DNA from: Crambe crambe
Taxonomy: Eukaryota; Porifera; Demospongiae; Poecilosclerida; Crambeidae
Assembly: GCA_963924555.1 (NCBI GenBank)
Contig: OZ004586.1
Coordinates: 806,001 to 870,000, forward strand
Length of the DNA stretch: 64,000 nucleotides
Direction: 5' to 3'
Shown here: in pieces, positions 7,532 to 40,400 of the stretch
Position numbering within the stretch: the first letter of the stretch is position 1
Layout of the letters: every line of letters begins with the position of its first letter
Program-made: the position numbers and the translations under genes
The notes under the pieces: model-generated
Seen by the model: only the letters and a program-made list of their open reading frames with translations
What the model was told of the DNA's origin: nothing
Databases searched by the model: none

Positions 7532-8211
7532 TAAGATGCCAGTTCACCAAATTGCTTTAGATTATTATTATTTTTAAATAAAAAGACAATTATAAGTTTA
7601 GATTTTAAGTCCTTAGCTTAATAAGCCTCAGTATACATATAGCTAATAATAGGTTATTCCACAACCTACACTCTAATCATAATTATTATAGCCTTATTTG
7701 GGCATTGTTATCATAAATCAGTAGCTATAGGCTATAAATGTACTTATGGCTACACACAAAGATTGATATTGAACAGATTCCCAGGTTTTTCTGCTGTGGA
7801 TTGCTGCTGAGATGGGGTTATTCAATTTCCCTTTTCTATTGTGCCATCCATGCCGTTTGATACTACTGTTTCCTCTCTTCTTTGGATGACAGCTTTCACC
7901 ACAATGGGAGAATTCATCACAACATTTGGCATCCAGAATGGTCACTATAGCTATTCAAAGAAGTGATAATAGCTGAAGATATTGCACAGTATTAATTAAT
8001 GGGGGAGGAGCCCCCTCCCCTAAATTTAAACGAAGCCCTGCATGTGATGTTGGGATTATTTCCGGTATGATATGTGGCTACTGAATGTAAGAATATGCAC
8101 CAAGTTTTGGTTTTGTTTTAATATTGAAATTGGAGGGGAGATGTTTATAATACACCATACTGGGTGCTGACATAGCTAATGGAACATGGTCTATAGCTAG
8201 CTAGAGCAATT
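7532..8211. other. SET 3' flank and spacer with small TRIM-NHL scraps
   Basis: AT-rich flank with aaataaaa (7,577) as a possible poly(A) signal for the SET gene. About 7,795-7,860 on the - strand reads KGKLNNPISAAIHS, and about 7,894-7,945 on the + strand reads FTTMGEFITTFG. Both are NHL-blade scraps in opposite orientation. The part from about 7,650 on reappears at 24,660 and 37,021. Confidence 0.6.
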
Positions 8212-9854: not shown

Positions 9855-10099
9855 CGCGAGTACCAGGGCTAACGATGAAGGAGGAGGGGGTTAGCTTTCA
9901 TATTGGTCATGTCATGATGTATGTACAATGGTCATGTGGTGTATGTACAGTGGTTATGTGATGTATGTATAGTGGTCATGTGATATAGCGTAAGCTGACC
10001 TATTATCGCCATACAGGAAGTGCTCCCTATTATCGCCAATAGCCAATTATCTTTTTGTGGCACCCCAGCAGAGCAAACAACACCGTCCACCCCACTTGT

Positions 10100-10256
10100 A
10101 AAGTCCACAAGTCACAGCCTCTAGCAGACATGTGACGTCTGCATTTCATTCTGCTCGAAAAAGAACGAACATGGGTTTATGGATGACATGGTTAAGAAAC
10201 ATCAGACAGTTCTAGAGGAAGAACTTGAACCGATCACAGCACCGAGCACAGCATGA
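10100..10256 (+). pseudogene. TRIM B-box/coiled-coil scrap (block A)
   Basis: Reads TCKVHKSQ, a short gap, CDVCISFCSKKNEHGFMDDMVKKHQTVLEEELEPITA. This corresponds to the end of the B-box and start of the coiled coil of the intact TRIM gene, with a deletion of the LELYCETC part. It is only about 150 bp with no RING. Just upstream, 9,905-9,990 carries four imperfect roughly 24-bp repeats of the type tggtcatgtgatgtatgta. Confidence 0.75.
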
Positions 10257-12841: not shown

Positions 12842-12968
<127 letters not shown>

Positions 12969-13721: not shown

Positions 13722-14395
13722 TAGCCTCGTTCCCAGGCCTTCCTTTCTCACGTACCACACGGGAGGAAGAGAAGAAGAAGAAGAAAAATAAGCGAGTGGA
13801 AGGCCTGGTACAACTTATCACGTGAGTGACGTCAAGGGTAGAGAGGAGGTAGAGAGGACTTTAATTGTGCGTGGGCATGTTTTACTCTGCAGCATGACCA
13901 TGCCTATGCTTTCTGGACAGGACCATCAAACAGATCAGACCGTCCTCGCGATCATAAATTTGAATGCTTCAGTTTGTCCTAGGCCTACTGGAGCAGTCTG
14001 TGACATCTAGGATGGTGAAGATCAGGAGTAAACCCAAGAGTATTAGACCTAACTATCTACTAGTTAGCTACGTAACAAAAAAGCTAGCTAGCTACATTGC
14101 ATGCTGGACTGTGTACTTAAATCAGCTATCTATTTCGTGTAGAAGTCTAAAGTCTGCTCCATCTAAGTCGCTTCAGTTCTTCCAGGGTAAAGTGTGAAAG
14201 AGATCGCGTGGGCGCTTGTTTTCTGATGTCATGAGTTAGCTTGCATATCGCCCACGCTCATTAAATATCACGCTGTTTGTGACGTCACTCACGTGATAAG
14301 TTGTACCAGGCCTTCCTCTCTCTTATTTTTCTTCTTTTTCTTCTTCTCTTCCTCCTGTGTGGTACATGAGAGAGGAAGGCCTGGGAACGAGGCTA
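13722..14395. mobile_element. Foldback/MULE-like element, 9-bp target duplication (block A)
   Basis: The ends are perfect inverses over at least 22 bp (tagcctcgttcccaggcctt inward), with looser pairing for over 100 bp including tcacgtgagtgacgtca. Flanks are atagtcagg on both sides (13713-13721 and 14396-14404). A 9-bp duplication is typical of Mutator-like elements. It lies in the last intron of the SLC4 pseudogene. The paralogous remnant at 21,500-21,530 keeps the uninterrupted site. Confidence 0.88.
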
Positions 14396-14785
14396 ATAGT
14401 CAGGCTCTCCCCCATAATACCTGTAACTGAGTGGTATGAACAATCTGGGTGGGTTGAAGTTATGCAAACTGCATTAATGGTCCATACAGTTGTAGCTACC
14501 TGAAGTGAGACCATCAAGATATGAATAATCTAGATATTAATCTGTATATTTCTTTCCTCCTGCAGTTGGATAACAAAGAAAATGCGAAGCCGGACCATGC
14601 AGATGTGGGAGAGTTTGAATTCACTCATGCCCCTTACTAATGAACAAGCAAATTACTCATCCCTTGCCAACAACCTCACTCTCTTTATGTGTGTGTATAA
14701 TGAATATTAGTCAGTAGGTGGAGACGGCACCGGACTGAAAGGGGCGTGTAGAGGGCAAAAAGGGGCGTTCCGCAGTTTTAACTTT

Positions 14786-15497
14786 AGGCCACACAAACTT
14801 TATTATTAGTTTCTCAAGCCCGCCCGCATCATATTTTTTCATCGACGTACAATTTTTTATATTAAATTAATTGTGGTTAAATTCTTATTGCGCATGCGCA
14901 TACGCCGAGTCTACAGTTCCTGTATCTTCTGCTACTATGCTTTTGTCTACTAAAATACTCTCGCTAGGATATGCTATCCTCACCTGGAACGTTGACCACC
15001 CTCCAGTCGCTAAATAAACGGGTTTTTATGAACGGAAGTGGGCGTGGTTTCAATAAAAATTAAAATATAAACGCGCATCCCGCATAGTCTGGCGTAGCCA
15101 GCTCCAGGCACTTCCGGAACTCCAGCGCAAGGGTCTGGTAACACAATACTTCGACTTGTTCCTGCTAAAACGATGAATACCATTAACTGACGCGTTATGA
15201 CGTTTAATGACGTGTAGCTAGCTATAACAACCATAATTATTACGGGATCGGGAGGCCATTTTTTTCTTCGCGCGAGGTGTTGCTATGACAATTAAACAAG
15301 ACAACGTCATTTTACGACACTAAAACGTCATATTACGTAAATAAAAAATTTAGGCCGGGAACAAGTCGAAGTATTGTGTTACCAGACCCTTACGCTGGAG
15401 TTCCGGAAGTGCTTGGGGCTGGCTGCGCCAGACTACATCCCGCATGACTTTCTGAAATAAATTGCCTGAGAAACTAATAATAAAGTTTGTATGGCCT
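14786..15497. mobile_element. Outer foldback element with a nested MITE
   Basis: ggccacacaaactttattat at the left is the near inverse of ataataaagtttgtatggcc at the right (about 33 paired bases). The interior holds a gcgcatgcgcat palindrome (14,887) and the nested element 15085-15435. In block B the right arm is missing because the duplication ends at the nested element. Confidence 0.65.
15085..15435. mobile_element. MITE with long inverted ends, 9-bp target duplication (block A)
   Basis: tagtctggcgtagccagctc at the left pairs with the right end (gctggctgcgccagacta), and pairing continues for about 75 bp (acttccggaactccagcg, ggtctggtaacacaatactt). It is flanked by catcccgca at 15076-15084 and 15436-15444. 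No coding capacity. Probably the same superfamily as 13,722 by duplication length. Confidence 0.88.
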
Positions 15498-17632: not shown

Positions 17633-18361
17633 AATTGTGTGCATAATAATCATTATCAGTGTTCTTTATACTGCATTCTCTTTCATGTGTGATTATGATG
17701 TTCCTGCTCAGAAATTAATCCGCAAGAAACCATAGGAATGCATGGTTGTGCGCATGCGCATGATCCTGGAAATGGACAATGTTACAAGAAACTGCTATCA
17801 GAGAGTGCGGTAGCACTCTCTAGCTAAGTAGGGATGGTAGGTCAAAGTCCATAGGACAGTATAAACTAAAAACTCTTCTTTCTCTTCTACCCTTACTCTA
17901 CAGATTCTCACAAGTCATGGCCCTATCCCTACATCTACACAGAAGACAGGACAATGTATAATAATCTAAAATTCATTCTACAACATTAACAAAAAACGAT
18001 TTCAAAAATTGACTTTTGTTCTAGTTTTTAACATAATAATAATCAGATCGGCGTACTGACTAACTGGCTATAGTCATCAGAATTCTGTTCGGGCCATCTG
18101 TTAGAGCGGCACCTAGAGGCTGATCTTTTGCTATTAGTTTTCACTACAGTTCCATTTCACAATTCAGTGATTATGGAACACTAGCTAATCTTTCTTCGCC
18201 ATTTTAAGGGCGGGGCCACATAGGTGCGCGCTAGCTAGAGCTGTTCAGCTTTGATATCTATACTTCAGCTAGCTATTTCTTGTGTTTCAGTCATTCCTCA
18301 GTACAGATTCTCATCCTACACATAATCAGTACTTAGCTCTGTGCAGTTTGCTCACTTCACC

Positions 18362-19057
18362 ATGCCAGTACTTCCAGCTGCGCACCCCCTCCCAGAAGGC
18401 AAGGAACTATAGATAACGCATTTTCATTCATTACTCTTACAATTACATCATCCAGTGCCACCTCCAGCCGCGCACCCCCTCCCAGAAGGTAAGCAACTAT
18501 GGAAATTTCTCCACTCTCACAATTACATCATCCAGTGCCACCTCAGCTGTGCGCCCCATCCCAGAAGGTGAGCAACTACATGTATGTATAATTATCACAT
18601 TCACTGCTCTCACAATTACATCATCCAGTACCACCTCCAGCCGCACGCCCCCTCCCAGAAGGTAAGCACTATAGATAGCACATTTCATGATCTTACAATT
18701 ACATCATCCAGTGCCACCTCCAGCTGTGCGCCCCCTCCCAGAAGGTAAGGAAGATAACACATTTCATGATCTTACAATTATATCATCCAGTGCCATCTCC
18801 AGCTTCCCACCCTCACCCAGAAGGTGCATGGAGGGGTAGGGCCAGGGCCAGGGGGAGGGGACGTCAATGGTTCTGCCCGTTCCCGTGTGAGTACATACTT
18901 AACTATTTTCCACCAACACATAACATGCATCACCATAATCTATAATTCCAGACCCAAACATGTACAATGGAAATTGTAAGTAATATAAAACAGTACAAAA
19001 TCACTTAGCTATAGCTACTTCTCTTTTCCAGTACACTTTCATTACCATGGGAGGTAA
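18362..19057 (+). CDS. Microexon-array gene, copy 1 (probably decaying)
   Basis: Inferred exons: 18362-18398, 18456-18488, 18536-18567, 18629-18661, 18712-18744, 18791-18886, 18952-18975, 19032-19057 (stop TAA). Internal introns have AG acceptors with the shared tract acaattacatcatccag and GT donors (gtaagc, gtgagc). Each microexon encodes VPPPAxxPxPE. The long exon encodes a basic Gly/Arg segment and CPFP, and the tail reads YPNMYNGN then LHFHYHGR. Defects relative to copy 2: the first donor is GC (aaggcaagg), one microexon is 32 nt (one C lost) so the frame breaks, and 8 bases are inserted upstream of the ATG. There are four internal microexons against eight in copy 2. Function unknown and no family recognised. 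Confidence 0.55.
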
Positions 19058-19805
19058 AAAGTAAGTCGTGCACTCTAACACTATAAAATATTTCATTTGC
19101 ATCTCAATACTTGCAGAAATCCTCAACAAGAACTCAAGGCAAGCATAAAGCTGCTATAGCTAGGCTTCATTTAACCCTATTGCTTTATACTTGCAGAACT
19201 CAAATCATTCATAATAACTTAGATATAATCTCACGATCATCACATACTCAAACAGCAGATCTCTATACTAAGCTGCACAAAATCCTGCTATCAAAGCTAC
19301 CAGCATCATAACATGTACACACAGGAGGTAGCACACGTGCCACAAATTACTACTCTTATTTGCTCATTCCCCACACCCTCCCTCATACAAGACAACCAAA
19401 CGTCTAGTATTCAACTTAATGTTTCATTCTGCTCTCATTTGCACTGCACATGCTCATCCATCCTCCCTCATGTAAGACAACCAAACCTCAACAACTATTA
19501 TTAAATTGAATGATTGTGCTCCTCTACAATAATGCTTTTCACTCTTATTGCACATGCCCACACACATTAATTGAAAAAAGAAAACACCAATAATTATGAA
19601 ATTTGGATATTAGCTAAGTGCAGCCATTCATTTCTTCAGGTTCTTCTTCACCACTGCACCTTCTCATTCTCTGCCAAGTGAAGATATTGAAGCCTCTTCA
19701 TCAGTCAATCATCCCTGACGAATATAACATTCAGTGCTATGTACTTACCAAAGAGGAACATTTCAATTTATATAGCTAATTACAAAGAAAAAGAATGGAA
19801 ACAAG

Positions 19806-20271
19806 TGAATGCAAAAAATTTCTTCTAAATAAAAAGTGAAGTAGGGATAGCAGTAAAATTTAGCTGCTTTCCTATCACTCCTACCCCTCCTGAAATTTCA
19901 ATATCCACGCCCATATATACACCCAACTTAAATCCCTACTCTTCACTCCCCCTTCAGCAATAAGTGAGTCAAGTAACCCCTTACCCGTACCCATCACCAA
20001 ACTCAAGAATCACAGCAATAATATTATTACAAAACTACTATTCCTACTTCACTCCTAAGGAGGCCTAGGAGTGAGTTTGGTGATGGGTACGGGTAAGGAG
20101 TTACTTGACTCACTTATTGCTGAAGGGGGAGTGAAGAGTAGGGATTTAAGTTGGGTGTATATATGGGCGTGGATATTGAAATTTTAGGAGGGGTAGGAGT
20201 GATAGGAAAGCAGCTAAATTTTACTGCTATCCCTACTTCACTTTTTATTTAGAAGAAATTTTTTGCATTCA
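19806..20271. mobile_element. 466-bp foldback element (unit 1)
   Basis: Two arms of about 215 bp are near-perfect inverses around the centre near 20,035. They start tgaatgcaaaaaatttcttc and end with its inverse, and include gaagtagggatagcagtaaa and cttaaatccctactcttcac in each arm. A related, shorter-centred copy lies at 34,000-34,400. Transcripts would form a long hairpin. No ORF. Confidence 0.88.
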
Positions 20272-20375
20272 CTTGTCTAAAAAGTAAGAGCTATGTGGTA
20301 AGCCTAAGTACCATAGCTACAATTCACACTCATCCGGGCTATTTTTTGTTATTAGTCTATGTGCTATATCACCTT

Positions 20376-22887: not shown

Positions 22888-23129
22888 CATTATAACACAT
22901 TTTTAGCCATCCTGTCAAATTCTACTCACAAATGTGTAAACCTTATCTAATTGGAACTCAGATAACCTAAAAATGGGTTGTTTTTACACATATCCATAGC
23001 AATAACAATAGTCACAATTATTTGTAATGAAATAATCATGTTGTTCAATTTTTAATTGTGCATTTATAATGATGTAATCAGAGTGTTTTTATACTTTATT
23101 CTTGACTAGCTACTATGTGATACGTAATG

Positions 23130-23625
23130 TTGTGTAAATCCTACAGTGCAATTCAAAAACCGTTGATGTCGGCTAGATTTCTCCAGAGAAATATTTGTTG
23201 CCGGCCACAGAAAAGAGGAAACCACAAATTGTGATGGTGCCCACATAATTATGTGGAAAATCCCAGTGTAGACCCTAAGAAGCCAGTAAACCTGAAATCC
23301 CAGATTTGCATGCTGGTTTTGAATACTACGATCACAAGCTCTACATGTGAGACAAACCAACTTTCCCAATGGCATCAGACTCAGCAAAGATGGAAAAATA
23401 TTCGTGTGTGATTCATGTTTGATCAAGTTATTGCGTGTAATAAGAGCTTTTTTCTGCTGATTTGGACTCCTGGTGAAATTTATGTTGCCGAAATAGATAA
23501 TCATCATATCCAAGTCCTGACTCCACAGGGGCAGCATATAGGAGAGTAGCTATGGGGTGAAAAGAATTAAGCCTCCCAATCTCAGCAGCAATCTATCAGA
23601 ACATCGTGTATCCAATTACTTCTAT
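23130..23625 (+). pseudogene. Highly degraded TRIM-NHL fragment (block B)
   Basis: Counterpart of 6,150-6,640 with small extra indels (ccggccacag, agatttgcatgctgg, catgtttgatcaag). These retain a little more of the ancestral NHL text, so the two copies have lost different bases. Stops throughout. Confidence 0.75.
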
Positions 23626-24046
23626 AGTTTGTCAGTAAATATCTTTGGAAGAATTTATGATAGAGATTTGCCTAATTCTGTACTTGCATCTACTGAGGCA
23701 TGGAGGTGGAGGGCAAAGTGGCAAGCAGAAGATGCTGAAATGCACTGAAACCTTGTGACTGGGGTTAGCTACTTTCCACTCTTTTGCGCATTGTGAGCCA
23801 GGACAAGAAAGGTTGTCATCTTTAGCCTTCATGCATACGATTATATCCACGTTGATCTATGTAGTTGACAGGTTTACACTAGGAGAATTGCTCTGATCAC
23901 CAATGTCCATTCACTTTCATACATCAAGTGGGCGCGGTTTATCAAAAGGCGTGGCCGTGGTCAGTCAGACAACTTTTCCCGCGACCTGCGATTCACCTGA
24001 AAAGCTGCAAAAGCTAGACCCGCCCCTGAGTCTGCCAGAGATATTG

Positions 24047-24538
24047 ATGGTTGAACGCTGCGAGGACCGCCTTCCGAGACCAGCTACTGGATTTCTGGTG
24101 AGAGCTGAACTGCGGATGACTCCAGATAAAGGAATCGGGGTATTTGCTGCGCAGTTCATCCCTGTCAAAACCAGGATATACGAAAGTGAACCCATCTCCT
24201 ACTCTGAGGAGGAAGCAAGCGCGCTCCTCGAGTCTTTACCAACTCTGGAGGAACGCAAGCACTGGCTGGAACATGCTTATGGCAGCCAGGGGAAGGTATG
24301 TATTGATCAGGATGATTCAAAGATGATAAATCACTCGGATAATCCCAACATGATCTATGAACTCTTATCTGAACATAAACATAAGGTGAAAAATTATGGC
24401 ACTGCTGTGCGTAACATTGAAGAAGGAGAAGAGTTGACTGAGGATTATAGGACATACTCACTCACTCCAGCCTATATCAGATTGTGTAAGAAATATGGTG
24501 TCTGTGAAGTGTACGAAATGGAGAGTTACTCGAAATGA
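24047..24538 (+). CDS. Small SET-domain protein, copy B
   Basis: 163 residues, single exon, with motifs GIGVFAAQF, MINHSDNPNM and GEELTEDY intact. The 5' half matches copy A at four sites where C differs. Between about 24,320 and 24,440 it matches copy C at nine sites where A differs, then is A-like again downstream. The frame is open upstream to an ATG at 23903. Predicted lysine methyltransferase of unknown target. Expression is not known for any copy. Confidence 0.75.
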   Translation: MVERCEDRLPRPATGFLVRAELRMTPDKGIGVFAAQFIPVKTRIYESEPISYSEEEASALLESLPTLEERKHWLEHAYGSQGKVCIDQDDSKMINHSDNPNMIYELLSEHKHKVKNYGTAVRNIEEGEELTEDYRTYSLTPAYIRLCKKYGVCEVYEMESYSK

Positions 24539-25218
24539 TAAGATGCCAGTTCACCAAATTGCTTTAGATTATTATTATTTTTAAATAAAAAGACAATTAT
24601 AAGTTTAGATTTTAAGTCCTTAGCTTAATAAGCCTCAGTATACATATAGCTAATAATAGGTTATTCCACAACCTACACTCTAATCATAATTATTATAGCC
24701 TTATTTGGGCATTGTTATCATAAATCAGTAGCTATAGGCTATAAATGTACTTATGGCTACACACAAAGATTGATATTGAACAGATTCCCAGGTTTTTCTG
24801 CTGTGGATTGCTGCTGAGATGGGGTTATTCAATTTCCCTTTTCTATTGTGCCATCCATGCCGTTTGATACTACTGTTTCCTCTCTTCTTTGGATGACAGC
24901 TTTCACCACAATGGGAGAATTCATCACAACATTTGGCATCCAGAATGGTCACTATAGCTATTCAAAGAAGTGATAATAGCTGAAGATATTGCACAGTATT
25001 AATTAATGGGGGAGGAGCCCCCTCCCCTAAATTTAAACGAAGCCCTGCATGTGATGTTGGGATTATTTCCGGTATGATATGTGGCTACTGAATGTAAGAA
25101 TATGCACCAAGTTTTGGTTTTGTTTTAATATTGAAATTGGAGGGGAGATGTTTATAATACACCATACTGGGTGCTGACATAGCTAATGGAACATGGTCTA
25201 TAGCTAGCTAGAGCAATT

Positions 25219-26864
25219 CTAGTCAATGTTGATGTGTTCAGGAGCAATGTCTGTGGTCTTCAGTCGATCCATGTCTATTAGGTGTCTCATGGTTGGACAA
25301 TTCTGCACAACCATATACAATAGACTTTAGTGTAAGAAACCCAAAGAAGCTCCTCTAGATCAAACCAAATGTGATGTTCCTTTCTTAACTGACTTGGCTG
25401 AGCTCTCTAAAATGGCACAGACTGACTTACCCATGGCTGTTCCATCTCAGACATGTGATTTAGCAACTGGGAAAATATAAAGTAGCTCCAGAGAACAGTG
25501 TTTAAAAGTCTGTTTCTATTTGCATTCACCTAACACCTTGATCACTTTTTAATGCATTGACAGAGAGCTCCAGCTGCTGGTGTTCAAAACTCGAAATTTG
25601 GTAGAAAGTTGAGTAAATGATAGGTGAATGCAAATGGACTTTAACTAGCTATAGTCACCTTTCTCATTTCCACTTTGTTTAGTGCTGTACCAATCATTAT
25701 AGAGGACCTGTGACATGATTATATAATAGCAATGCAATATTGAAGGGGAACCCCCCAATAATTATACTCGATGGCTGTTACGTACATCAAAAGACTTACC
25801 TGCAAGCCCTTGATGCAAACATGGATCTCACAGCAGTGGGCCTTACCACTTCTCCCTGTTGCAATTGAGAGGCATCATTGTTGCACCAAATAATAAAGCT
25901 AAGTATTATTATTTACTGGTGTGCATCCATCATCTGAGAGCATGAACACCTTTCCTCAATATCTGAACAAAAGAAGGAAAAACACTTTAGTGTGTGTCTA
26001 TTGCCTTGAAAAAGGTGGGGAGTTCTTATTGCATAAGTGCATGCATTTCCATCAACCATAATCGTAAAGGACCTTTCTTTTCCATGGACCAGTTTTTGGA
26101 GACTGGTTTAGCAGCCAACTTGATTCTCTTCATGGGAGGGGCTAAAGCAGATGAACAAAATTAATGATACATATAACAAAAAAATAATAATAATATATGA
26201 TAATAATAATAATTGCACCTTCTGTGTCAATCTGGAATTTGAAACCATTCATTTCAAATATCTTCAAGTTATCCATTATGATGCTCTCACTGACGGCTGA
26301 CAACTCCAAATCTTTAGGTTCGTAGAAAAAGTAACAATAGGATTAGCTAGCTGGTCATTCATAGCTCAGAGGCACATGTATGGATCTAGGCTCAGCTGCA
26401 GATTAAAGTTTTTAAAGTTTATACATGAGCAGCTTCTGATGTTGAATGACAGTTTCTTCCTGCAGACGTTCAAAGTTGTACTTTTTGTCTGTTGCATGCT
26501 GGTCCACTATGAACAGATCACTCTCCAGTCTGGCAATGATGAAGCCAAGGTTGAACTGTCCTATCACTTGCATCTGTAGAAAGTCAAATTTTCTGGGGGA
26601 TAGGAATTAGTAGATTGAAAATCAAATTGATGTGTGATAGACTCACTTGATTTCTTTTCTCAGTTCCTAGCCTTGTTACTGCTTGGATCAATCTTAGCTC
26701 TGAACCTTGACCTTTGCCTCTCTACGACACTTCACCAGTAGTGGACTTCCCTTCGTTGACTGCTTGCTCACTCCACAGTGACTTCAGCCTGGCGGTAATG
26801 ATATCAAGGTCAAGTCTAACCTCCATCTCTGGAACATGACTGGGAGAAGAAGAAACTGCACTAT
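25219..26864 (-). pseudogene. PMS2 3'-end pseudogene (block B)
   Basis: Same remnant as in block A, with identical loss in the CPHGRP exon and the same abrupt end within the linker exon. Only a few extra bases (ccttgaaaaag near 26,005) differ. Derived from block A's state by the segmental duplication. Confidence 0.87.
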
Positions 26865-27109
26865 CGCGAGTACCAGGGCTAACGATGAAGGAGGAGGGGG
26901 TTAGCTTTCATATTGGTCATGTCATGATGTATGTACAATGGTCATGTGGTGTATGTACAGTGGTTATGTGATGTATGTATAGTGGTCATGTGATATAGCG
27001 TAAGCTGACCTATTATCGCCATACAGGAAGTGCTCCCTATTATCGCCAATAGCCAATTATCTTTTTGTGGCACCCCAGCAGAGCAAACAACACCGTCCAC
27101 CCCACTTGT

Positions 27110-27266
27110 AAAGTCCACAAGTCACAGCCTCTAGCAGACATGTGACGTCTGCATTTCATTCTGCTCGAAAAAGAACGAACATGGGTTTATGGATGACATG
27201 GTTAAGAAACATCAGACAGTTCTAGAGGAAGAACTTGAACCGATCACAGCACCGAGCACAGCATGA
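27110..27266 (+). pseudogene. TRIM B-box/coiled-coil scrap (block B)
   Basis: Same as 10,100-10,256, with no visible difference. Preceded by the same four imperfect 24-bp repeats (26,915-27,000). Confidence 0.75.
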
Positions 27267-29846
27267 GTACGAAAGCCTCACGAGGTAGCTAATCATGAAG
27301 AATAGGGGAATTAAGAGCAGTTTAGAACTAAAATTTAGGGGGCCAAAATCATTTCAAGAGAGACAACTCCCTTGCCCCTACTTTAAAAAAAACTCTGTTT
27401 GTAGTGGTTTTGAAAACACTTCGTGGAGCTGGAAGAGATTCACATTGGCTCCACTAAGGAACTGGGGTGGGAAGAAACTGCTCGCTGGATCAAGTTCAAA
27501 GAAGACATGGAAGAGGGTAGTGACGTCCACATGTGTCTGCCCTTGCATTCCACAGTCTTGTGGAGGTCTGCCAGGGTCTAGAAACAGGTCAAAGTTCAAG
27601 TCTTGATCAAGAATTGCTAGATGCAAAGGATCATGACTACCCCACCGTTGTGGACGGGATTGTTAAGAGTTTAGTGGAATTAAATCTCCTTCCCAACGAG
27701 CTTTTGGACCAAGTGAGAAGACTGCTGCTCAAGAAACGCAAGCATCCTTCCTCCTCTTTATGAGACAAGTTAAGGCAAACAGCTGCAGGTTGGTAAAGGG
27801 TAGATAGCACGGCAGATTCGGTGTGCAGTGTTTTGTTGTTTTTTCATTCCATTCCACTTGTGATTCCATAATTCAGTGATTTCTACTCTATTCCAGATAG
27901 CAACCTGCTTCGGAGCAGGAGACCGAGTTCTGATAATACCAGTAAAAATTCAAATGACCACACCCACCTCCAGAAACCCCCTCTCGTCCTTCACTCCCAC
28001 TCGAGTCCTGTTCCTTTTGAGAAGATAATAGCACAGTAAGTTACTTGTCGTCTCTCCTCCTCCTCCTCCTCTCATCCACTTCACTTACCTCACATCTTCC
28101 CCCTCACAGGTACAGCCCAACAACTCTTCAATACTGCCAACGAAAGATACTATGGTGCACGTCAGCTCTGCACCAGCAATGTTCTCTGCCACTCAAGGAC
28201 CACCAGACATCTCAGACTTCAACAGCAAGAAAGTCACCTTCACAGTGGAAGTGAACTCTGACTTTTCAGATCATACCAGTGCAGGTACAAATTGAGCCCT
28301 TTAGAGTCACCTGAAGTGAACTTTGAAGTTAGCTTGCCTCAGAGTGGGTCTACTTTGAATGAGCCCCTGTAGTAGAAGTGAACTCTGCCCTTTAGTAGGT
28401 GTTTTTACATACAGAATTTCCCTTCATAGACTCCGCCCATGGTAACTCCCAACCAAACTCCACCCATCAAGACCACACCTCTTTTAACAAGCAACTCTTC
28501 ACCACCAAGACCACACCCCTCTTGACGAGCAGAAGATAGAAGTGAGATGGAGGCAGATTCTGCCTACTCTGAGATGTCCACTAGGGATGGCGATGATCCA
28601 GTCACTTCCACCAAGCGTCCACCAATTGCTATCCTAGACAAGATCCCAGAGGAGGCGGAGTCTCTCACTGTGCTGGTGGGTGGGGTGAACTTCCTAAAGC
28701 AACCAATCACAGCCTTCATTCATCTGAAACATGTATTGTTATATTTATTTTAATGAATCTTGTTTAGGTAATTGCTTAGGATGAGTTGATGGAGGTGCCT
28801 ATCCCACTTCGGTTTATATTCCTCTAGATAGCTAGGACCTGACAACCAGTCACGTAACTATCACGAGGTTGGAAGAGCCATGGCAACCCTAATGTCAGAA
28901 AAGACAAATAGGATTTAGGAAAAGGACATAAACTCTTATAGTGTTTCCATGAAGTGGCGTACTCTGCTGTGTCCAAGGAGGAGGCTATGGACGAGTTTCT
29001 GGATGACAGCATCGTCCTTCCCCCAGGGGATTGGGACGAGGACCTCTTGCTCTCCGCTATGCACGAGAAGAATACCATCCAAAGACAAAGAGGTCAGACA
29101 CAGCATCTTGCTAAGCAGTGTATAACAACAACAACAACAACAATAACAACAACAAATCCTTGCCTGCAAAAATCTTCCCACTCCATTGGCAACATTAAAC
29201 TTTGTTTGTTTGTTTGTTAGAGGACCACAAGGAGGCTGTCAAAAATTACGACAAATTGGTAAGAGAACCCATGAAACACTCGCATCGTTTCTGTGGAGGG
29301 TTGTGGAAAGACCTGAAGAACTTTGCTTCCCGCTATCCCAGTGACATCAAGGACTCCTTCAACCTCCAAGTCTTGGTTTCCATCTTCTTCCTCTACATCT
29401 CGTTCCTCGCTCCTGCCATAGCCTTCGGTGGTCTGATGGAGGAAATCACAGGAAACCAGATTGGAGAGACAGAGACTCTCTTGGCCACTGGACTGGGAGG
29501 AATTGTTGTTTCGTTGTTTGCTGTACAACCCTTGACAGTACAGTTGATCATTGTCGTCCAAGATAATAAGAACAAGGTGACCATTACCCGTCTCCCACTC
29601 TCTCCTCTCCCATTGTACCCCATCATTGTGCCCATCATTGTCCCATTACCCCCTTCCCTCTGGAGCCGGCCCTGGTACTCACGTCAAAAATAACATCCTC
29701 ATATACGATGACAGGACCTGTGAATGCCAGGTCTATTCTCTCTGGTCTAGCGGGTCTAATTGGGATCCCCTTCCTGTGTGGTGCTCCCGTTAGATCCATC
29801 CAGCACCTCCAGGCACTTAGTGTATTCACAAAGAAGCATGCCCCTG

Positions 29847-29849
<3 letters not shown>

Positions 29850-29914
<65 letters not shown>
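29850..29914. repeat. (CT)n microsatellite (block B)
   Basis: About 65 bases of CT then a C run and tcag. Net length differs from block A by 63 bases, which keeps the surrounding + frame open in both copies. Confidence 0.93.
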
Positions 29915-29916
<2 letters not shown>

Positions 29917-30662
29917 CCCCTCAGTTGTCACTCCATTTGCCAGTGTGGTGCTGGAAAGGATCCCCATCTCAGTGGTGCTGGGTGTGTTCTTCTATTTGGG
30001 CTTCGTCTCTCTGAGTGGTATCCAGCTTACCAATCGCATGAAACTCTTCTTCATCTTACCAAAATACCATTCCAATGCCATTTATGTCAGAAAAGTACGA
30101 GTGCCTATACAGTGAAAACAAAATGTGTAAAAACAACCCATTTTTAGGTTATCTGAGTTCCAATTTGCAAATTAGATAAGGTCTACACATTTGTGAGTAG
30201 AGAAATCCAGCAGGATGGCTAAAAATGTGTTATATGATCAGCTATATTTGTCCTGAATTAGGACATTAGGCAATTTAGATCAGAAAATGTCCTCTATCCT
30301 GCTGTTATCACTTTTGAGTAGAAGGTTATTTATACAATAGGTCATCTCCTTCTAATTGCTCACTCAATTTTTCTTGTGCTAGGTTCGTACATGGAAGATG
30401 CACATTTACACACTGATTCAGGTATTTTGTGTGGCACTGCTCTTTGCTGTCAAACTCTCTGAGGCAGCTGTGTCCTACCCTCTCATCATCGTCCTCCTCA
30501 TCCCACTTAAGTGGATTCTGGGAAAAACCATCTTCAACAAGGAGGAGATGGAGGCTGTAAGCTTCTATGTGTATAGTTTGTTTCACAATTTGAAAAGTCA
30601 AAAAGGTTTTCTGATTCAGTGTTTTGTGCATTGGTCGGGTAAATGGTCTCGCTATAGTCAGG

Positions 30663-31336
30663 TAGCCTCGTTCCCAGGCCTTCCTTTCTCACGTACCACA
30701 CGGGAGGAAGAGAAGAAGAAGAAGAAAAATAAGCGAGTGGAAGGCCTAGTACAACATATCACGTGAGTGACGTCAAGGGTAGAGAGGAGGTAGAGAGGAC
30801 TTTAATTGTGCGTGGGCATGTTTTACTCTGCAGCATGACCATGCCTATGCTTTCTGGACAGGACCATCAAACAGATCAGACCGTCCTCGCGATCATAAAT
30901 TTGAATGCTTCAGTTTGTCCTAGGCCTACTGGAGCAGTCTGTGACATCTAGGATGGTGAAGATCAGGAGTAAACCCAAGAGTATTAGACCTAACTATCTA
31001 CTAGTTAGCTACGTAACAAAAAAGCTAGCTAGCTACATTGCATGCTGGACTGTGTACTTAAATCAGCTATCTATTTCGTGTAGAAGTCTAAAGTCTGCTC
31101 CATCTAAGTCGCTTCAGTTCTTCCAGGGTAAAGTGTGAAAGAGATCGCGTGGGCGCTTGTTTTCTGATGTCATGAGTTAGCTTGCATATCGCCCACGCTC
31201 ATTAAATATCACGCTGTTTGTGACGTCACTCACGTGATAAGTTGTACCAGGCCTTCCTCTCTCTTATTTTTCTTCTTTTTCTTCTTCTCTTCCTCCTGTG
31301 TGGTACATGAGAGAGGAAGGCCTGGGAACGAGGCTA
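30663..31336. mobile_element. Foldback/MULE-like element (block B copy)
   Basis: Same element and same 9-bp flanks (30654-30662 and 31337-31345, atagtcagg) as in block A. The insertion therefore predates the A/B duplication. Confidence 0.87.
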
Positions 31337-32022
31337 ATAGTCAGGCTCTCCCCCATAATACCTGTAACTGAGTGGTATGAACAATCTGGGTGGGTTGAAG
31401 TTATGCAAACTGCATTAATGGTCCATACAGCTGTAGCTACCTGAAGTGAGACCATCAAGATATGAATAATCTAGATATTAATCTGTATACTTCTTTCCTC
31501 CTGCAGTTGGATAACAAAGAAAATGCGAAGCCGGACCATGCAGATGTGGGAGAGTTTGAATTCACTCATGCCCCTTACTAATGAACAAGCAAATTACTCA
31601 TCCCTTGCCAACAACCTCACTCTCTTTATGTGTGTGTATAATGAATATTAGTCAGTAGGTGGAGACGGCACCGGACTGAAAGGGGCGTGTAGAGGGCAAA
31701 AAGGGGCGTTCCGCAGTTTTAACTTTAGGCCACACAAACTTTATTATTAGTTTCTCAAGCCCGCCCGCATCATATTTTTTCATCGACGTACAATTTTTTA
31801 TATTAAATTAATTGTGGTTAAATTCTTATTGCGCATGCGCATACGCCGAGTCTACAGTTCCTGTATCTTCTGCTACTATGCTTTTGTCTACTAAAATACT
31901 CTCGCTAGGATATGCTATCCTCACCTGGAACGTTGACCACCCTCCAGTCGCTAAATAAACGGTTTTTATGAACGGAAGTGGGCGTGGTTTCAATAAAAAT
32001 TAAAATAAAAACGCGCATCCCA

Positions 32023-32373
32023 TAGTCTGGCGTAGCCAGCCCCAGGCACTTCTGGAACTCCAGCGCAAGGGTCTGGTAACACAATACTTCGACTTGTTCC
32101 TGCTAAAACGATGAATACCATTAACTGACGCGTTATGACGTTTAATGACGTGTAGCTAGCTATAACAACCATAATTATTACGGGATCGGGAGGCCATTTT
32201 TTTCTTCGCGCGAGGTGTTGCTATGACAATTAAACAAGACAACGTCATTTTACGACACTAAAACGTCATATTACGTAAATAAAAAATTTAGGCCGGGAAC
32301 AAGTCGAAGTATTGTGTTACCAGACCCTTACGCTGGAGTTCCGGAAGTGCTTGGTGCTGGCTGCGCCAGACTA
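32023..32373. mobile_element. MITE at the right edge of block B
   Basis: Copy of the element at 15085-15435. The left flank has catccca (two bases fewer) and the right target duplication is absent because block B ends exactly at the element's last base. Confidence 0.82.
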
Positions 32374-33380
32374 CTAAATTGTCCCAAACAAACAGGAGAG
32401 GAGAAGAAGTGTGCCAAATTTCTGCTAAACTATAGCCAATTGGTAAGTTCAAAGAATACAAAGAGTGGGCTAGTATAGTGCTAAACAAGCATAGTTCTTA
32501 AAAAGGCTGGTTTCTCAAGTGTTAGAGGGTATAATTGCGAGTAACAATGGTAGTTCGACTTTGTGGACCTCTGGAGCTTGGATGTTAAAAGTATAGTCTC
32601 TTTTTCCCCACTAATCTGTTAGGTAGTGATCATTTATATGTACATATGTACTTTTTAAAGGTGCCTGTATGTCGATGTTACTGTTTCTTCAGATTACCCA
32701 TGGCTGGCTGTCAAGAAAAGCTATAGTAAAGTAGGATACTATAATGTAGCAACTAATACTGTCACTTTATACATATTTCCTTTCATGTTATAATAAGAAA
32801 ATGATAATAACAAGTACTGATAGTGCACTGCTGAACATCCAATTCATCGAGAGATTTGTTGTGATATACTTGTTTTGAGGGATCAAGATGAAGAGTAAAG
32901 CTGCCCCAGTGTATCCTTTCCTGCCCCTGATACAAGGAGATGTCTCATCTCCTCATATAAGAACAACAACATAGTGAAATGGCTTCTTAAGCCATCAATG
33001 GCAAATGGCATGCCATCTCCAGCCCTGCACAAAATTAAAACTACTTGAGTACATATAGTCAACTAGTATCTTTCATTTTATACCAAAAGTAAGGCAGCTA
33101 GACTTCTATTTTAGTAGTAGGAGTGCCACAAAACTTTTCAGTCACCTGTTTCTTCCATAGCAACAGTAAATAGACTAAACTGACATGATAAACTACTACA
33201 GCTATAGGTCATTGAGCCTTTTCACTTATAATCATAATTATTGCTGCGCTAAATACCTTGCCTTTCACCCTCTTTCTTATTTTGTGTAAGATTTCTCTGT
33301 TCGCCAGGTACCTACACGGATGGTCTATAAATTCTACGCGCGCATGCCCTGTTTCCAATCCTGTGTACGTAGTCTAGTGA
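32374..33380. other. Unassigned spacer, about 1 kb
   Basis: AT-rich, with no ORF of note and no similarity to other parts of the window that I can see. It separates block B from the third SET copy. Confidence 0.5.
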
Positions 33381-33385
33381 TATTG

Positions 33386-33877
33386 ATGGCTGAACGCTGC
33401 GAGGACCGCCTTCCGAGACCAGCTACTGGATTTCTGGTGAGAGCTGAACTTCGGATGACTCCAGATAAAGGAATCGGGGTATTTGCTGCGCAGTTCATCC
33501 CTGTCAAAACCAGGATATACGAAAGTGAACCCCTCTCCTACTCTGAGGAGGAAGCAAGCGCGCTCCTCGAGTCTTTACCAACTCTGGAAGAACGCAAGCA
33601 CTGGCTGGAACATGCTTATGGCAGCCAGGGGAAGGTATGTATTGATCAGGATGATTCAAAGATGATAAATCACTCGGATAATCCCAACATGATCTATGAA
33701 CTCTTATCTGAACATATACATAAGGTGAAAAATGATGGCACTGCTGTGCGTAACATTGAAGAAGGAGAAGAGTTGACTGAGGATTATAGGACATACTCAC
33801 TCACTCCAGCCTATATCAGATTGTGTAAGAAATATGGTGTCTGTGAAGTGTACGAAATGGAGAGTTACTCGAAATGA
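33386..33877 (+). CDS. Small SET-domain protein, copy C
   Basis: 163 residues with the full set of SET motifs (GIGVFAAQF, MINHSDNPNM, GEELTEDY). The similarity to copies A and B begins only a few bases before this ATG (gatattgatgg), which is why it is preferred as the start. An upstream in-frame ATG at 33320 (MVYKFYARMPCFQ) has no counterpart. Copy-specific changes include K to I and Y to D in the HKVKN region (HIHKVKNDG). The 3' flank continues like A and B to about 33,999, where a 3-kb insertion begins. Confidence 0.77.
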   Translation: MAERCEDRLPRPATGFLVRAELRMTPDKGIGVFAAQFIPVKTRIYESEPLSYSEEEASALLESLPTLEERKHWLEHAYGSQGKVCIDQDDSKMINHSDNPNMIYELLSEHIHKVKNDGTAVRNIEEGEELTEDYRTYSLTPAYIRLCKKYGVCEVYEMESYSK

Positions 33878-33999
33878 TAAGATGCCAGTTCACCAAATTG
33901 CTTTAGATTATTATTATTATTTTTTTAAGACAATTAGAAGTTTAGATTTTTAAATTTTTTAAGTCCTTAGCTTAATAAGCCTCAGTATACATATAATAA

Positions 34000-34400
34000 T
34001 GAATGCAAAAAATTTCTTCTAAATAAAAAATGAAGTAGGGATAGCAGTAAATTTAGCTGCATTCCTATCACTCCTACCCCTCCTAAAATTTCAATATCCA
34101 TGCCCATATATACACCCAACTTAAATCCCTACTCTTCACTCCCCCTTCAGCAATACGTGAGTCAAGTAACCCCTTACCCGTACCCATCACCAAACTCAAG
34201 AATCACAGCAATAATATTATTACAAAACTACCTCACATATTGCTGAAGGGGGGGTGAAGAGTAGGGATTTAAGTTGGGTGTATATATGGGCGTGGATATT
34301 GAAATTTTAGGAGGGGTAGGAGTGATAGGAATGCAGCTAAATTTTACTGCTATCCCTACTTCATTTTTTATTTAGAAGAAATTTTTGCATTCACTTGTTT
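34000..34400. mobile_element. Foldback element (unit 2)
   Basis: Arms start tgaatgcaaaaaatttcttc and end with its inverse. The centre is shorter than in the 19,806 copy because part of one arm (the gggtacgggtaagg part) is missing. No ORF. Confidence 0.82.
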
Positions 34401-35394
34401 CCATTCTTTTTCTTTGTAATTAGCTATATAAATTGAAATGTTCCTCTTTGGTAAGCACATAGCACTGGATATGGAAGATAACAATACTTGTGTATTATTC
34501 ATATTCAAAAGAAGTAGTTATTTCCAAATATATGCTAAGAAAAGCTCAATGATTAATTTTGAATGTTATATTCGTCAGGGATGATTGACCGATGAAGAGG
34601 CTTCAATATCTTCACTTGGCAGAGAATGAGAAGGTGCAGTGGTGAAGAAGAACCTGAAGAAATGAATGGCTGCACTTAGCTAATACCCAGATTTCGGTGT
34701 TTTCTTTTTTCAATTAATGTGTGTGGGCATGTGCAATAAGGAGTGATTGGGCAGTTTTTGTATTGAGAGTACCCTCTCATGCATGCCTGCTGAGGGTTAA
34801 TTTGCAATCGGTATTGTTTGCAAGCATAGGACTGAAGAATGTTTTGTTATCTTGAGGGAGGAGAGTATGACTGACATGAAGGATGAGTAGCTATCTGTTG
34901 TGGATACAGTACTGAGGAGTGAAAAGCATTATTGTAGAGGAGCACAATCATTCAATTTAATAATAGTTGTTGAGGTTTGGTTGTCTTACATGAGGGAGGA
35001 TGGATGAGCATGTGCAGTGCAAATGAGAGCAGAATGAAACATTAAGTTGAATACTAGACGTTTGGTTGTCTTGTATGAGGGAGGGTGTGGGGAATGAGCA
35101 AATAAGAGTAGTAATTTGTGGCACGTGTGCTACCTCCTGTGTGTACATGTTATGATGCTGGTAGCAGGATTTTGTGCAGTTTAGTATAGAGATCTGCTGT
35201 TTGAGTACGTGATGATCGCGAGATTATATCTAAGTTATTATGAATGATTTGAGTTCTGCAAGTATAAAGCAATAGGGTTAAATGAAGCCTAGCTATAGCA
35301 GCTTTATGCTTGCCTTGAGTTCTTGTTGAGGATTTCTGCAAGTATTGAGATGCAAATGAAATGTTTTATAGTGTTAGAGTGCACGACTTACTTT
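34401..35394. other. 3' part of repeated unit 2, no assigned gene
   Basis: Mostly an inverse match to 19,058-19,805. About 34,700-34,930 has extra sequence that is absent from unit 1. Short ORFs occur in both copies but their ends differ and no family is recognised. Probably 3' untranslated or spacer sequence of the microexon gene. Confidence 0.5.
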
Positions 35395-36456
35395 TTACCT
35401 CCCATGGTGATGAAAGTGTACTGGAAAAGAGAAGTAGCCATAGCTAAGTGATTTTGTACTGTTTTATATTACTTACGATTTCCATTGTACATGTTTGGGT
35501 CTGGAATTATAGATTATGGTGATGCATGTTATGTGTTGGTGGAAAATAGTTAAGTATGTACTCACACGGGAACGGGCAGAACCGTTGACGTCCCCTCCCC
35601 CTCCGCCTGGCCCTGGCCCTACCCCTCCATGCACCTTCTGGGTGAGGGTGGGAAGCTGGAGATGGCACTGGATGATGTAATTGTAAGATCATGAAATGTG
35701 TTATCTTCCTTACCTTCTGGGAGGGGGCGCGCAGCTGGAGGTGGCACTGGATGATGTAATTGTAAGATTATGAAATGTGCTATCTATAGTGCTTACCTTC
35801 TGGGAGGGGGCGTGCGGCTGGAGGTGGTACTGGATGATGTAATTGTAAGAGCAGTGAATGTGATAATTCTACATACATGTAGTTGCTTACCTTCTGGGAT
35901 GGGGCGCACAGCTGGAGGTGGCACTGGATGATGTAAGATGTAATTGTGAGAGTGGAGAAATTTCCATAGTTGCTTACCTTCTGAGAGGGAGCGGTGTGCG
36001 GGTGGAGGTGGCACTGGATGATGTAATTGTGAGAGCAGTGAATGTGATAATTCTACATACATGTAGTTGCTCACCTTCTGGGATGGGGCGCACAGCTGGA
36101 GGTGGGACTGGATGATGTAATTGTGAGAGTGGAGAAATTTCCATAGTTGCTTATCTTCTGGGAGGGAGCGGCGTGCGGGTGGAGGTGGCACTGGATGATG
36201 TAATTGTAAGAGCAGTAAATGTGATAATTCTACATACATGTAGTTGCTCACCTTCTGGGATGGGGCGCACAGCTGGAGGTGGCACTGGATGATGTAATTG
36301 TGAGTGGAGAAATTTCCATAGTTGCTTACCTTCTGGGAGGGGGTGCGCGGCTGGAGGTGGCACTGGATGATGTAATTGTAAGAGCAGTGAATGAAAATGC
36401 GTTATCTATAGTTCCTTACCTTCTGGGAGGGGGTGCACAGCTGGAGGCACTGGCAT
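35395..36456 (-). CDS. Microexon-array gene, copy 2 (complete frame, 152 residues)
   Basis: Inferred exons in order of translation: 36420-36456, 36330-36362, 36252-36284, 36155-36190, 36075-36107, 35978-36013, 35891-35923, 35797-35829, 35714-35746, 35566-35667, 35477-35500, 35395-35420. They sum to 459 nt with no frame break. All are joined in phase 1, the eight internal microexons are 33 or 36 nt, and introns are 45-61 nt within the array. Microexons encode VPPPAAHPLPE, VPPPAVRPIPE and VPPPPARRSLPE types, alternating as two-unit repeats. Then come a basic segment (GAWRGRARARRRGRGRQ), CPFP, YPNMYNGN and LHFHHHGR. One donor (36155) is AT instead of GT. No known domain. A further upstream exon is possible, since the acceptor tttcag at about 36,520 opens an in-frame stretch. 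Transcription is unproven. Confidence 0.62.
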
Positions 36457-37020
36457 GGTGAAGTGAGCAAACTGCACAGACTGATTATGTGTAGGATGAG
36501 AATCTGCACTGAGGAATGACTGAAACACAAGAAATAGCTAGCTGAAGTATAGATTCTCACAAGTCATGGCCCTATCCCTACATCTACACAGAAGACAGGA
36601 CAATGTATAATAATCTAAAATTCATTCTATATCATTAACAAAAAACGATTTCAAAAATTGACTTTTGTTCTAGTTTTCAATATAATAATAATCAGATCGG
36701 CGTACTGACTAACTGGCTATAGTCATCAGAATTCTGTTCGGGCCATCTGTTAGAGCAGCACCTAGAGGCTGATCTTTTGCTATTAGTTTTCACTACAGTT
36801 CCATTTCACAATTCAGTGATTATGGAACACTAGCTAATCTTTCTTCGCCATTTTAACTTAAGGGCGGGGCCACATAGGTGCGCGCTAGCTAGAGCTAGCT
36901 GTTCAGCTTTGATATATATATATAGAGTAAGGGTAGAAGAGAAAGAAGAGTTTTTAGTTTATACTGTCCTATGGACTTTGACCTGCCATCCCTATTAGAG
37001 AGTGCTACCGCACTCTCTGA

Positions 37021-37467
37021 TAGGTTATTCCACAACCTACACTCTAACCATAATTATTATAGCCTTATTTGGGCATTGTTATCATAAATCAGTAGCTATA
37101 GGCTATAAATGTACTTATGACTTCTTTGGATGACAGCTTTCACCACAATGGGAGAATTCATCACAACATTTGGCATCCAGAATGGTCACTATAGCTATTC
37201 AAAGAAGTGATAATAGCTGAAGATATTGCACAGTATTAATTAATGGGGGAGGAGCAAATGCTCCCTGCCCCTCCTCTAAATTTAAACGAAGCCCTGCATG
37301 TGATGTTGGGATTATTTCCGGTATGATATGTGGCTACTGAATGTAAGAATATGCACCAAGTTTTGATTTTGTTTTAATATTGAAATTGGAGGGGAGATGT
37401 TTATAATACACCATACTGGGTGCTGACATAGCTAATGGAACATGGTTTATAGCTAGCTAGAGCAATT
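37021..37467. other. PMS2 3' flank, third copy of the block A spacer
   Basis: Resumes the block A/B spacer at taggttattccacaac. It holds the small NHL scrap (ttcaccacaatgggagaatt, 37,140) and the stretch ggaggagcaaatgctccctgcc. A region of about 40 bp of the A/B version (the SAAIHS scrap) is missing. Confidence 0.6.
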
Positions 37468-40400
37468 CTAGTCAATGTTGATGTGTTCAGGAGCAATGTC
37501 TGTGGTCTTCAGTCGATCCATGTCTATTAGGTGTCTCATGGTTGGTCTTCCATGTGGACAATTCTGCACAACCATATACAATAGACTTTAGTGTAAGAAA
37601 CCCAAAGAAGCTCCTCTAGATCAAACCAAATGTGATGTTCCTTTCTTAACTGACTTGGCTGGAAATAGCTAAGGTCTCTAAAATGGCACAGACTGACTCA
37701 CCCATGGCTGTTCCATCTCAGACATGTGATTTAGCAACTGGGAAAATATAAAGTAGCTATTCAAGAGCCTAAGAACAGTGTTTAAAAGTCTGTTTCTATT
37801 TGCATTCACCTAACACCTTGATCATTAATTTTTTTAATGCATTGACAGAGAGCTCCAGCTGCTGGTGTTCAAAACTCGAAATTTGGTAGAAAGTTGAGTA
37901 AATGATAGGTGAATGCAAATGGACTTTAACTAGCTATAGTCACCTTTCTCATTTCCACTTTGTTTAGTGCTGTACCAATCATTATAGAGGACCTGTGACA
38001 TGATTATATAGCAATGCAATATTGAAGGGGAACCCCCCAATAATTATACTCGATGGCTGCTACATACATAAAAAGACTTACCTGCAAGCCCTTGATGCAA
38101 ACATAGATCTCACAGCAGTGGGCCTTACCACTTCTCCCTGTTGCAATTGAGAGGCATCATTGTTGCATCAAATAATAAAGCTAAGTATTATTATTTACTG
38201 GTGTGCATCCATCATCTGAGAGCATGAACACCATTTCCTCAATATCTGAACAAAAGAAGGGAAAATACTTTAGTGTGTGTCTATTAATTGCATTGAAAGA
38301 GGTGCATGGGGAGTTCTTATTGCACGAGTGCATGCATTTCCATCAACCATGCATAATCGTAAAGGACCTTTCTTTTCCATGGACCAGTTTTTGGAGACTG
38401 GTTTAGCAGCCAACTTGATTCTCTTCATGGGAGGGGCTAAAGTAGATGAACAAAATTAATGATACATTATAACAAAAAAAACAACAACTGCACCTTCTGT
38501 GTCAATCTGGAATTTGAAACCATTCATTTCAAATATCTTCAAGTTATCCATTATGATGCTCTCACTGACGGCTGACAACTCCAAATCTTTAGGTCTGTAG
38601 AAAAAGTAACAATAGGATTAGCTAGCTGGTCATTCATAGCTCAGAGGCACATGTATGGATCTAGGCTCAGCTGCAGATTAAAGTTTATACATGAGCAGCT
38701 TTTGATGTTGAATGACAGTTTCTTCCTGCAGACGTTCGAAGTTGTACTTCTCGTCTGTTGCATGCTGGTCCACTATGAACAGATCACTCCCCAGTCTGGC
38801 AATGATGAAGCCAAGGTTGAACTGTCCAATCACTTGCATCTGTAGAAAGTCAGATTTTCTGGGGATGGGAATCAGTAGATTGAAAATCAAATTGATGTGT
38901 GATAGACTCACTTGATTTCTTTTCTCAGTTCCTCTTCAGCAGTCTTGTTACTGCTTGGATCAATCTTAGCTCTGAACCTTGACCTTTGCCTCTCTACGAC
39001 ACCCTCTGAGGAAGAGCTAGGGACTTCGCCAGTAGTAGACTTTCCCTCGTTGACTGACCCAGCTTCTTGCTCACTCCACAGTGACCTCAGCCTGGTCGTA
39101 ATGACATCAAGGTCAAGTCTAACCTCCATCTCTGGAACATGACTGGGAGAAGAAGAAGCTGCACTATCCAGATTCATAGACAGAGCTTTCTTAGATTTTT
39201 TCTTTCCACTGGAGACTTCCCTCACATGTTTAGAATTTAACTTACTTTCTCTTTCATTTGACTTCACATCTAATAATTTTGATTTCACTGGAGAGGTCAT
39301 GACATTGACTGGTCTGTAAGAGAAGTTCATTAAGGGTCCAGATTTCAAGGATCCAGGAGATAAATGTGCCCTGGAAGGAGATATCGGATTATCACAGTCA
39401 CTTCTTAAAATTTCTTCTTCTTCATGATCTGATGAACCAAGATGTTCTTCCTCCGCAATGTGATAGTCATTTAGTGTGTCTCCTTTATCATTCATCTCCT
39501 CAGTGGTATCACCAGGAGATACACCCCATCTAACGTCACTTGAAGGGCCAACATGTCTCTCATCTTCTTTGGAAGGCAAAGGAAACTCATCAGTACACAA
39601 AATTTCATTATCAATAGAAGATTCCTCAGTTAAAGACCTTCTCCCTGGATGTAAAACTCCAAAATCGACCAGTTTAGCCTCTAATAATAAAATAAGTATT
39701 TTAATTAATGTATCTCAAGTATACATTGCCCTCACGTTTGGTTGCTGGTTCAACTTTCCTTGCATTTCCTAAATGCTCCACATTCCTATAACATTGTGTA
39801 ATCATTACATCAGCAAGGGAATTCCCTACAACCAGCATGCTTATATATACAACTTCTGACAACAACATGACAATAACAACACCTTTTAAAATTTGTAAAA
39901 CCAGAGAGTCTTGGTCCGCCAGGTGAAGAAGAACTGGAAGGAGTCGAAATGGATGTGGCCTCTGATGAAATGGGTGTGGTTCCAGTAGACAGCGAGTGAG
40001 TATCAAACTGCCCTTGCATTTGCTCATAGAGGGTACAGAGAGAAACCTAAGTGATATTAGGACGTCACTGCTTGAAACGTTTTGTATAAAAAAATTATTG
40101 TATTGGTAGCTGAATCATTTCAAGGAAGACTTACTCTGATAAGAAGAAGTAAAACTTTTTCATGATGGAGCATCACTTGTCGTTTGTCTGGTGTGATATT
40201 CACATCAATACTTTCTGATAGAAGCAGAAAGGCACAGTAATGCTATAACACAATGCTCTTTGTCCAGTGTTGAAAGGAGAGCAGATACCTCTTGCTGTAC
40301 TGATGTTTAGGATGACACAAGGGTATTGATGTCTGTTGAACATGTGGTACACCTCATTCACTGTCCTGGCCAGCTGATGAACGGGCACAACAGTATTGTC

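Follow-up and report, generated by a model that had tools for sequence, protein, structure and literature searches.

The array of tiny exon-like units on the - strand between 36456 and 35395 of the analysed stretch of the Crambe crambe genome (64,000 nucleotides, hereafter the window) is, we think it likely, cargo carried by a non-autonomous rolling-circle transposon of Helitron2 type, approximately 2.5-4 kb long, in which it forms part of a gene-like tandem exon-intron cassette; the transposon part of this reading is well supported. The gene-like layout of this array, referred to here as copy 1, was confirmed from the sequence, and features of the cassette suggest that it was probably derived from a spliced gene. 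A sequence-only reading of the window had taken the array for one gene with one second copy. Instead, the array is a dispersed repeat, and at least one module of the candidate element (the hairpin end, the adjoining region or the palindrome end) was found in 34 of the 36 loci fetched from outside the window.

Cassette anatomy in the two window copies

Starting from an ATG exon, the copy 1 cassette runs through eight units of 33 or 36 nt (in order 33, 33, 36, 33, 36, 33, 33 and 33 nt), a 102-nt exon whose start is a ninth unit, a 24-nt exon and a 26-nt stop exon (Table 1). Between the ATG exon and the 102-nt exon lie nine spacers, of 57, 45, 61, 47, 61, 54, 61, 50 and 46 nt, and a single AT donor follows the unit at 36190-36155. 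When joined, the predicted exons give 152 residues and a stop, with junctions that, by reading of the sequence, are in phase 1. On all these points copy 1 bore out the sequence-only reading, which had described eight 33/36-nt units spaced at 45-61 nt with one AT donor, phase-1 junctions, and a 152-residue frame assembled from the units together with the first, 102-nt, 24-nt and stop exons.

Copy 2 has four internal units, the number given earlier; one of them (18536-18567), however, is 32 nt long and breaks the frame, and the first exon ends in a GC donor, neither of which the earlier description mentioned. The two copies are oppositely oriented and occupy unrelated sites, and they therefore represent separate insertions.

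The genes of the window (HCO3 transporter, RING/B-box/NHL, SET and RhoGEF) are animal-like. A 9.4 kb segment containing copies of the SET-domain gene is duplicated approximately 17 kb apart at 97.8% identity (6031-15436 and 22996-32374), with further partial copies at 33376-33995 and 37121-39168, and a perfect minisatellite of 39 copies of a 22-bp unit (1310-2168, 100% match) is open in three - strand frames. No Rfam match was found in the window at gathering thresholds, and a tRNA search returned none.

Table 1. Features of the candidate element and its cassette in the window (positions are those of the window)
Feature	Position	Strand	Remarks
Copy 1, whole non-autonomous Helitron-type element (predicted), 3.0 kb	34000..37020	-	Runs from the hairpin end at 37020 to the palindrome end at 34000; ends common to other loci; empty paralogous sites
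Copy 1, 3' terminal module with palindrome	34000..34470	-	
Copy 1, stop exon	35395..35420	-	
Copy 1, 24-nt exon	35477..35500	-	Donor GTAAGT
Copy 1, 102-nt exon	35566..35667	-	Last unit and Arg-rich part
Copy 1, array of eight 33/36-nt units and short spacers	35714..36362	-	TRF period 177 bp, equal to a unit pair; type string bABABACDZ
Copy 1, first exon	36420..36456	-	ATG to phase-1 donor
373-bp inversion upstream of the cassette	36548..36920		Copy 1 only, among the loci compared
Copy 2, whole element (predicted), separate insertion	17798..20271	+	To 20275 counting CTTG; opposite orientation to copy 1
Copy 2, 5' terminal hairpin AGAGAGTGC-GGTA-GCACTCTCT	17800..17821	+	Folding energy -9.3 kcal/mol, z -5.4
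Copy 2, cassette	18362..19057	+	Four units between a first exon with a GC donor and the 96-nt, 24-nt and stop exons
Copy 2, 3' terminal palindrome	19801..20276	+	205-nt arms, 99% complementary, with inverted copies of AAGTAGGGATRGYAG
Unoccupied paralogous site 1, at A^T	7649..7650		
Unoccupied paralogous site 2, at A^T	24656..24657		

Dispersal, ends and relatives of the element

With one unit as the query, a search of the genome (143 Mb in 119 contigs) returned at least 289 matches. The 36 fetched loci and the two window copies made up a set of 38 loci, in which 274 units were recognised, from 1 to 18 per locus, by a unit finder that was anchored on the acceptor and the CCCAGAAG end rather than on length and that missed degraded units. 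Most of the 274 measured 33 nt (217) or 36 nt (46), with six of 37 nt and five of other lengths. The motif of the C-terminal exon was present at 29 places with no more than two mismatches.

The loci remain homologous beyond the cassette, as far as a fixed end on either side. Both terminal modules were matched somewhere in the fetched stretch at 14 of the 36 loci, and both ends were found in order by pattern, 2.5-4.0 kb apart, in the two window copies and in eight fetched array loci, the eight including two pairs of duplicated segments. Two loci, L041 and L043, have no terminal module; parts of them closely match other copies, and we read both as apparently truncated copies of the element.

In the sense of the cassette, the 5' end starts with TCAG and a hairpin, TCAGAGAGTGCGGTAGCACTCTCT, followed by AAGTAGGGATRGYAG. 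The hairpin folds at -9.3 kcal/mol (z -5.4, folded as the - strand), and 0 of 200 shuffles folded as well. The pattern of the hairpin terminus had 859 exact matches genome-wide and its reversed control none. Among 100 places listed, the terminus often occurs in tandem at steps of approximately 230 bp (for example C1:5393595-5394559), and tandem hairpin termini are also seen at the 5' end of a Rep-encoding Helitron in locus L047. The 15-nt AAGTAGGGATRGYAG lies approximately 24 nt from the 5' end (28 nt in copy 2), and its inverted copy 33-37 nt from the 3' end, where the element reads CATTCA or CACTTG.

These ends resemble Helitron2 more closely in some respects than in others. The asymmetric terminal inverted repeat expected of Helitron2 is present, and at the one insertion with empty sites there is no target duplication, as is likewise expected; of the hairpins expected at both termini, the 5' one was seen, whereas the 3' end is a long palindrome and not a short hairpin. 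With the canonical Helitron (Helitron1) the element shares the 5' TC and the A^T target, and it lacks the CTRR in which Helitron1 ends, 10-12 nt after a hairpin.

The insertion of copy 1 could be compared with unoccupied sequence, as the segment around it is paralogous to 7030-9855 and 24037-26865, both of which are without the element at the matching place. On the simplest reading of this evidence, which comprises one insertion and two paralogous empty sites, filled and empty sites differ by an element at A^T, without target duplication, and by four bases, GCTA, beside the site. Four-base insertions of the TAGC/GCTA type recur at unrelated places in copies that are otherwise nearly the same: beside the empty site near 7640-7650, in L028 and L044, and in copy 2 near 17822. 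In the list of left ends, some of which are internal tandem ends, the intact TCAG is always preceded by A; where the right end is the short GCATTCA, in eight rows that include two pairs of duplicated segments, the next base is always T. The 373-bp block inverted in copy 1 has the other orientation in all compared loci that possess it.

Rep-encoding relatives were sought with a 352-base stretch beside the hairpin terminus in L047 as a query for Helitron 5' ends, and 40 candidate matches were scored. For each of the best five of the 40 (93-100% identity), an ORF of 2163-2428 aa with the Helitron_like_N (PF14214) Rep domain lies 3746-3986 bp downstream on the same strand; these five ORFs are thereby linked to the shared 5' end, and the 5' region of the L047 Helitron begins with the same terminus as the array element. 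Judged by eye, none of the remaining 35 scored matches (88-92%) is so placed with respect to the 67 PF14214 matches. A sixth ORF of near-equal score (C17:3003413) has no such upstream match among the 40 scored, and the many other Helitron ORFs without one among those 40 seem to belong to other subfamilies. The Rep-encoding Helitrons with the shared 5' end are a likely source of transposase for the array element; at the 3' end of the Rep-encoding Helitron, another short element occupies the place. An array-free element of 1.15 kb in L045 has both end types, and it is for this reason that we regard the exon-intron cassette as cargo.

Two other assignments of the ends were tried. In one, the hairpin closed a Helentron-like element at its 3' side; this was dropped once Helitron ORFs were seen to follow the hairpin end and to share its orientation. 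In the other, C1:5050023 was considered as a partner end, but a distinct 1.15 kb element without an array, lying in reverse orientation, turned out to end there.

Frames, constraint and alternative explanations

Constraint on the cassette was assessed from distinct non-CpG changes over possible changes among copies. For the array, 179 units in six classes with at least 12 members each gave 16/169 synonymous, 16/353 nonsynonymous and 61/897 intronic changes, a hint of constraint when the array units are taken alone. The corresponding figures for the tail (27 loci) were 9/99, 29/324 and 13/360, and by themselves they gave no such hint. Once array and tail were pooled (synonymous 25/268, nonsynonymous 45/677, intronic 74/1257) the weak hint was gone, and no purifying selection on the frame was found among these copies (nonsynonymous versus synonymous, p 0.17; versus introns, p 0.55). 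Before correction for CpG, variation was greater in exons than in introns for five of the seven unit classes. CpG transitions in the array exons of the six classes numbered 43 at 18 possible nonsynonymous changes and 22 at 6 possible synonymous ones; because they far exceed other changes in these exons, they suggest that the element copies are methylated. Exons no more conserved than introns are what neutral decay after insertion would be expected to leave, and are silent on the source element. A parent gene outside the elements was not found, the one pattern search giving a single hit, within an element locus.

The same transposon could instead carry an ordinary satellite-like tandem repeat, as many HINEs do, the look of an exon being a coincidence in one ancestral unit, and we judge this unlikely. 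Central tandem arrays figure in the accessible parts of two accounts of HINEs (PMC4067079, PMC7492417), and the lack of exon constraint beyond that of introns fits such an origin, as does the appearance of an equivalent single-unit exon in 116 of 3000 shuffles of the unit. Because the units are copies of each other, their eight matching phases amount to one coincidence, and the earlier claim that chance duplication of non-coding DNA was excluded is weakened accordingly. The non-repeated tail of 300 nt is far less easily produced by chance, and it tells against a satellite: the two tail introns have strong splice sites (GTGAGT and GTAAGT donors, TTCCAG acceptors) with the frame open across them, and a comparable open two-intron chain arose in 0 of 3000 dinucleotide shuffles, although the shuffle criteria were chosen after the sequence was seen. 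Exon lengths, moreover, differ by 3 (33 and 36 nt) and spacers by 4, 7, 11 and 14, though 37- and 32-nt units occur.

It is very unlikely, in our estimation, that the cassettes form a family of living, spliced, protein-coding genes, belonging to the host or the transposon, held under selection and with unit number as a source of variation. Such a family would agree with the 265 of 274 recognised units whose length is a multiple of three, with the 264 that are followed by GT (in 26 cases the unit is the final one, and there the model reads on through the GT), and with a frame kept to the stop over recognised units, through 1 to 14 internal units, in nine of the 18 loci with first exon and tail. 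However, because few of the proline and alanine codons in these units are one step from a stop, intact frames would be expected in young copies. Seven of the nine frame-keeping loci (L011, L013, L015, L016, L022, L023, L026, L041 and copy 1) have a gap with a possibly missed unit, an abnormally short spacer or, as in L041, a lost acceptor; L023 alone is contiguous and has GT-AG at every junction, copy 1 being contiguous bar its one AT donor. The undepleted nonsynonymous changes of the pooled set and the greater variability of exons before CpG correction also argue against a living family, and the predicted protein has no Pfam match.

That copies 1 and 2 are a resident two-copy gene produced by local duplication, with no mobile element, is scarcely credible: the window does contain the duplicated 9.4 kb segment, but both copies lie outside the duplicated match, in opposite orientation and at different sites, and the empty paralogous sites and the 36 further loci speak against a resident gene with one extra copy.

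Array growth, known systems and significance

When units were sorted into classes (A, B and so on) by exon and intron length, the order b(AB)nACDZ emerged in many loci, among them L023 and L028 (bABACDZ) and L009 and copy 1 (bABABACDZ), and the commonest neighbour pairs were BA (27) and AB (26). Some loci depart from this order or contain unclassed units. Because arrays often keep the order, they seem to change largely by whole two-unit steps with the ends fixed. The sequence-only reading had proposed gain and loss of whole exon-intron units by unequal exchange; the range of 1 to 18 units and the AB pairs are in keeping with the gain and loss, whereas slippage during rolling-circle copying fits as well as unequal exchange does, so that neither mechanism is singled out.

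Our data are consistent with a model in which an ancestral Helitron would have captured the cassette from a spliced gene. Thereafter, whole exon-intron units, in many cases AB pairs, may have been added to the array and removed from it through either unequal exchange or slippage in replication, with transposition spreading versions that differ in unit number. As the units are in-frame modules, a spliced product, if any, would vary in its number of VPPPA-type repeats without loss of frame. The present copies seem to be decaying neutrally.

Comparison with known systems is limited to those parts of the cited sources that were accessible. Like the Helitron2 elements FoHeli1 and FoHeli2 of Fusarium oxysporum (PMC5148889), the array element starts with TCAG and a 5' terminal hairpin, has an asymmetric inverted repeat with its 3' copy tens of bp inside the 3' end, and has Rep-encoding relatives. 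The Fusarium elements end in ATTTT, whereas the sponge element ends in a palindrome with 205-nt arms and CATTCA or CACTTG, and unlike them it carries a tandem exon-intron cassette, in an animal genome. With the HINE and DINE-1 elements, as far as these are described in PMC4067079 and PMC7492417, it shares non-autonomy, subterminal inverted repeats, a terminal stem-loop and dispersal, and like HINEs it has a central tandem array between two terminal modules. HINEs are characterized by a TT target and T-rich borders, whereas the array element is at A^T at the one site with empty paralogues. In these accounts DINE-1 and HINEs are described as being without coding capacity, whereas the tandem unit of the array element reads as an in-frame exon and an intron, with additional exons downstream.

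The micro-exon genes of schistosomes (PMC8293314, PMC5825161, PMC10526429) likewise contain runs of short symmetric exons whose skipping leaves the frame intact, though in the sponge array the exons are predicted. The schistosome genes, as those sources portray them, are resident genes with introns of up to 5 kb and secreted products; in contrast, the copy 1 spacers measure only 45-61 nt, and the units are near-identical copies set within a transposon. Non-autonomous Helentrons with central tandem arrays (PMC7492417, PMC4067079) and runs of symmetric microexons in schistosomes (PMC8293314, PMC5825161) are thus each already known, to judge from the accessible parts of these papers. No report of an exon-intron array carried by a Helitron was found in the literature searched, which was covered by titles and the beginnings of abstracts, with subscription journals mostly outside it.

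The array element links rolling-circle transposons, satellite-like central arrays and symmetric microexons, which are usually separate subjects. The 38 arrays, many of which share a unit order and differ in unit number, represent a natural series in which the gain and loss of exon-intron units can be studied. A bolder form of our proposal, to which we give little weight, is that a Helitron mobilised a working spliced gene of expandable in-frame microexons, each insertion seeding a proline-rich protein of different repeat number; if true, transposition would itself generate length variants, which could serve the host or the element's own cycle. Under the capture model that we favour, and if such arrays do come from captured genes, some of the central repeats of non-autonomous Helitrons may be gene-derived.
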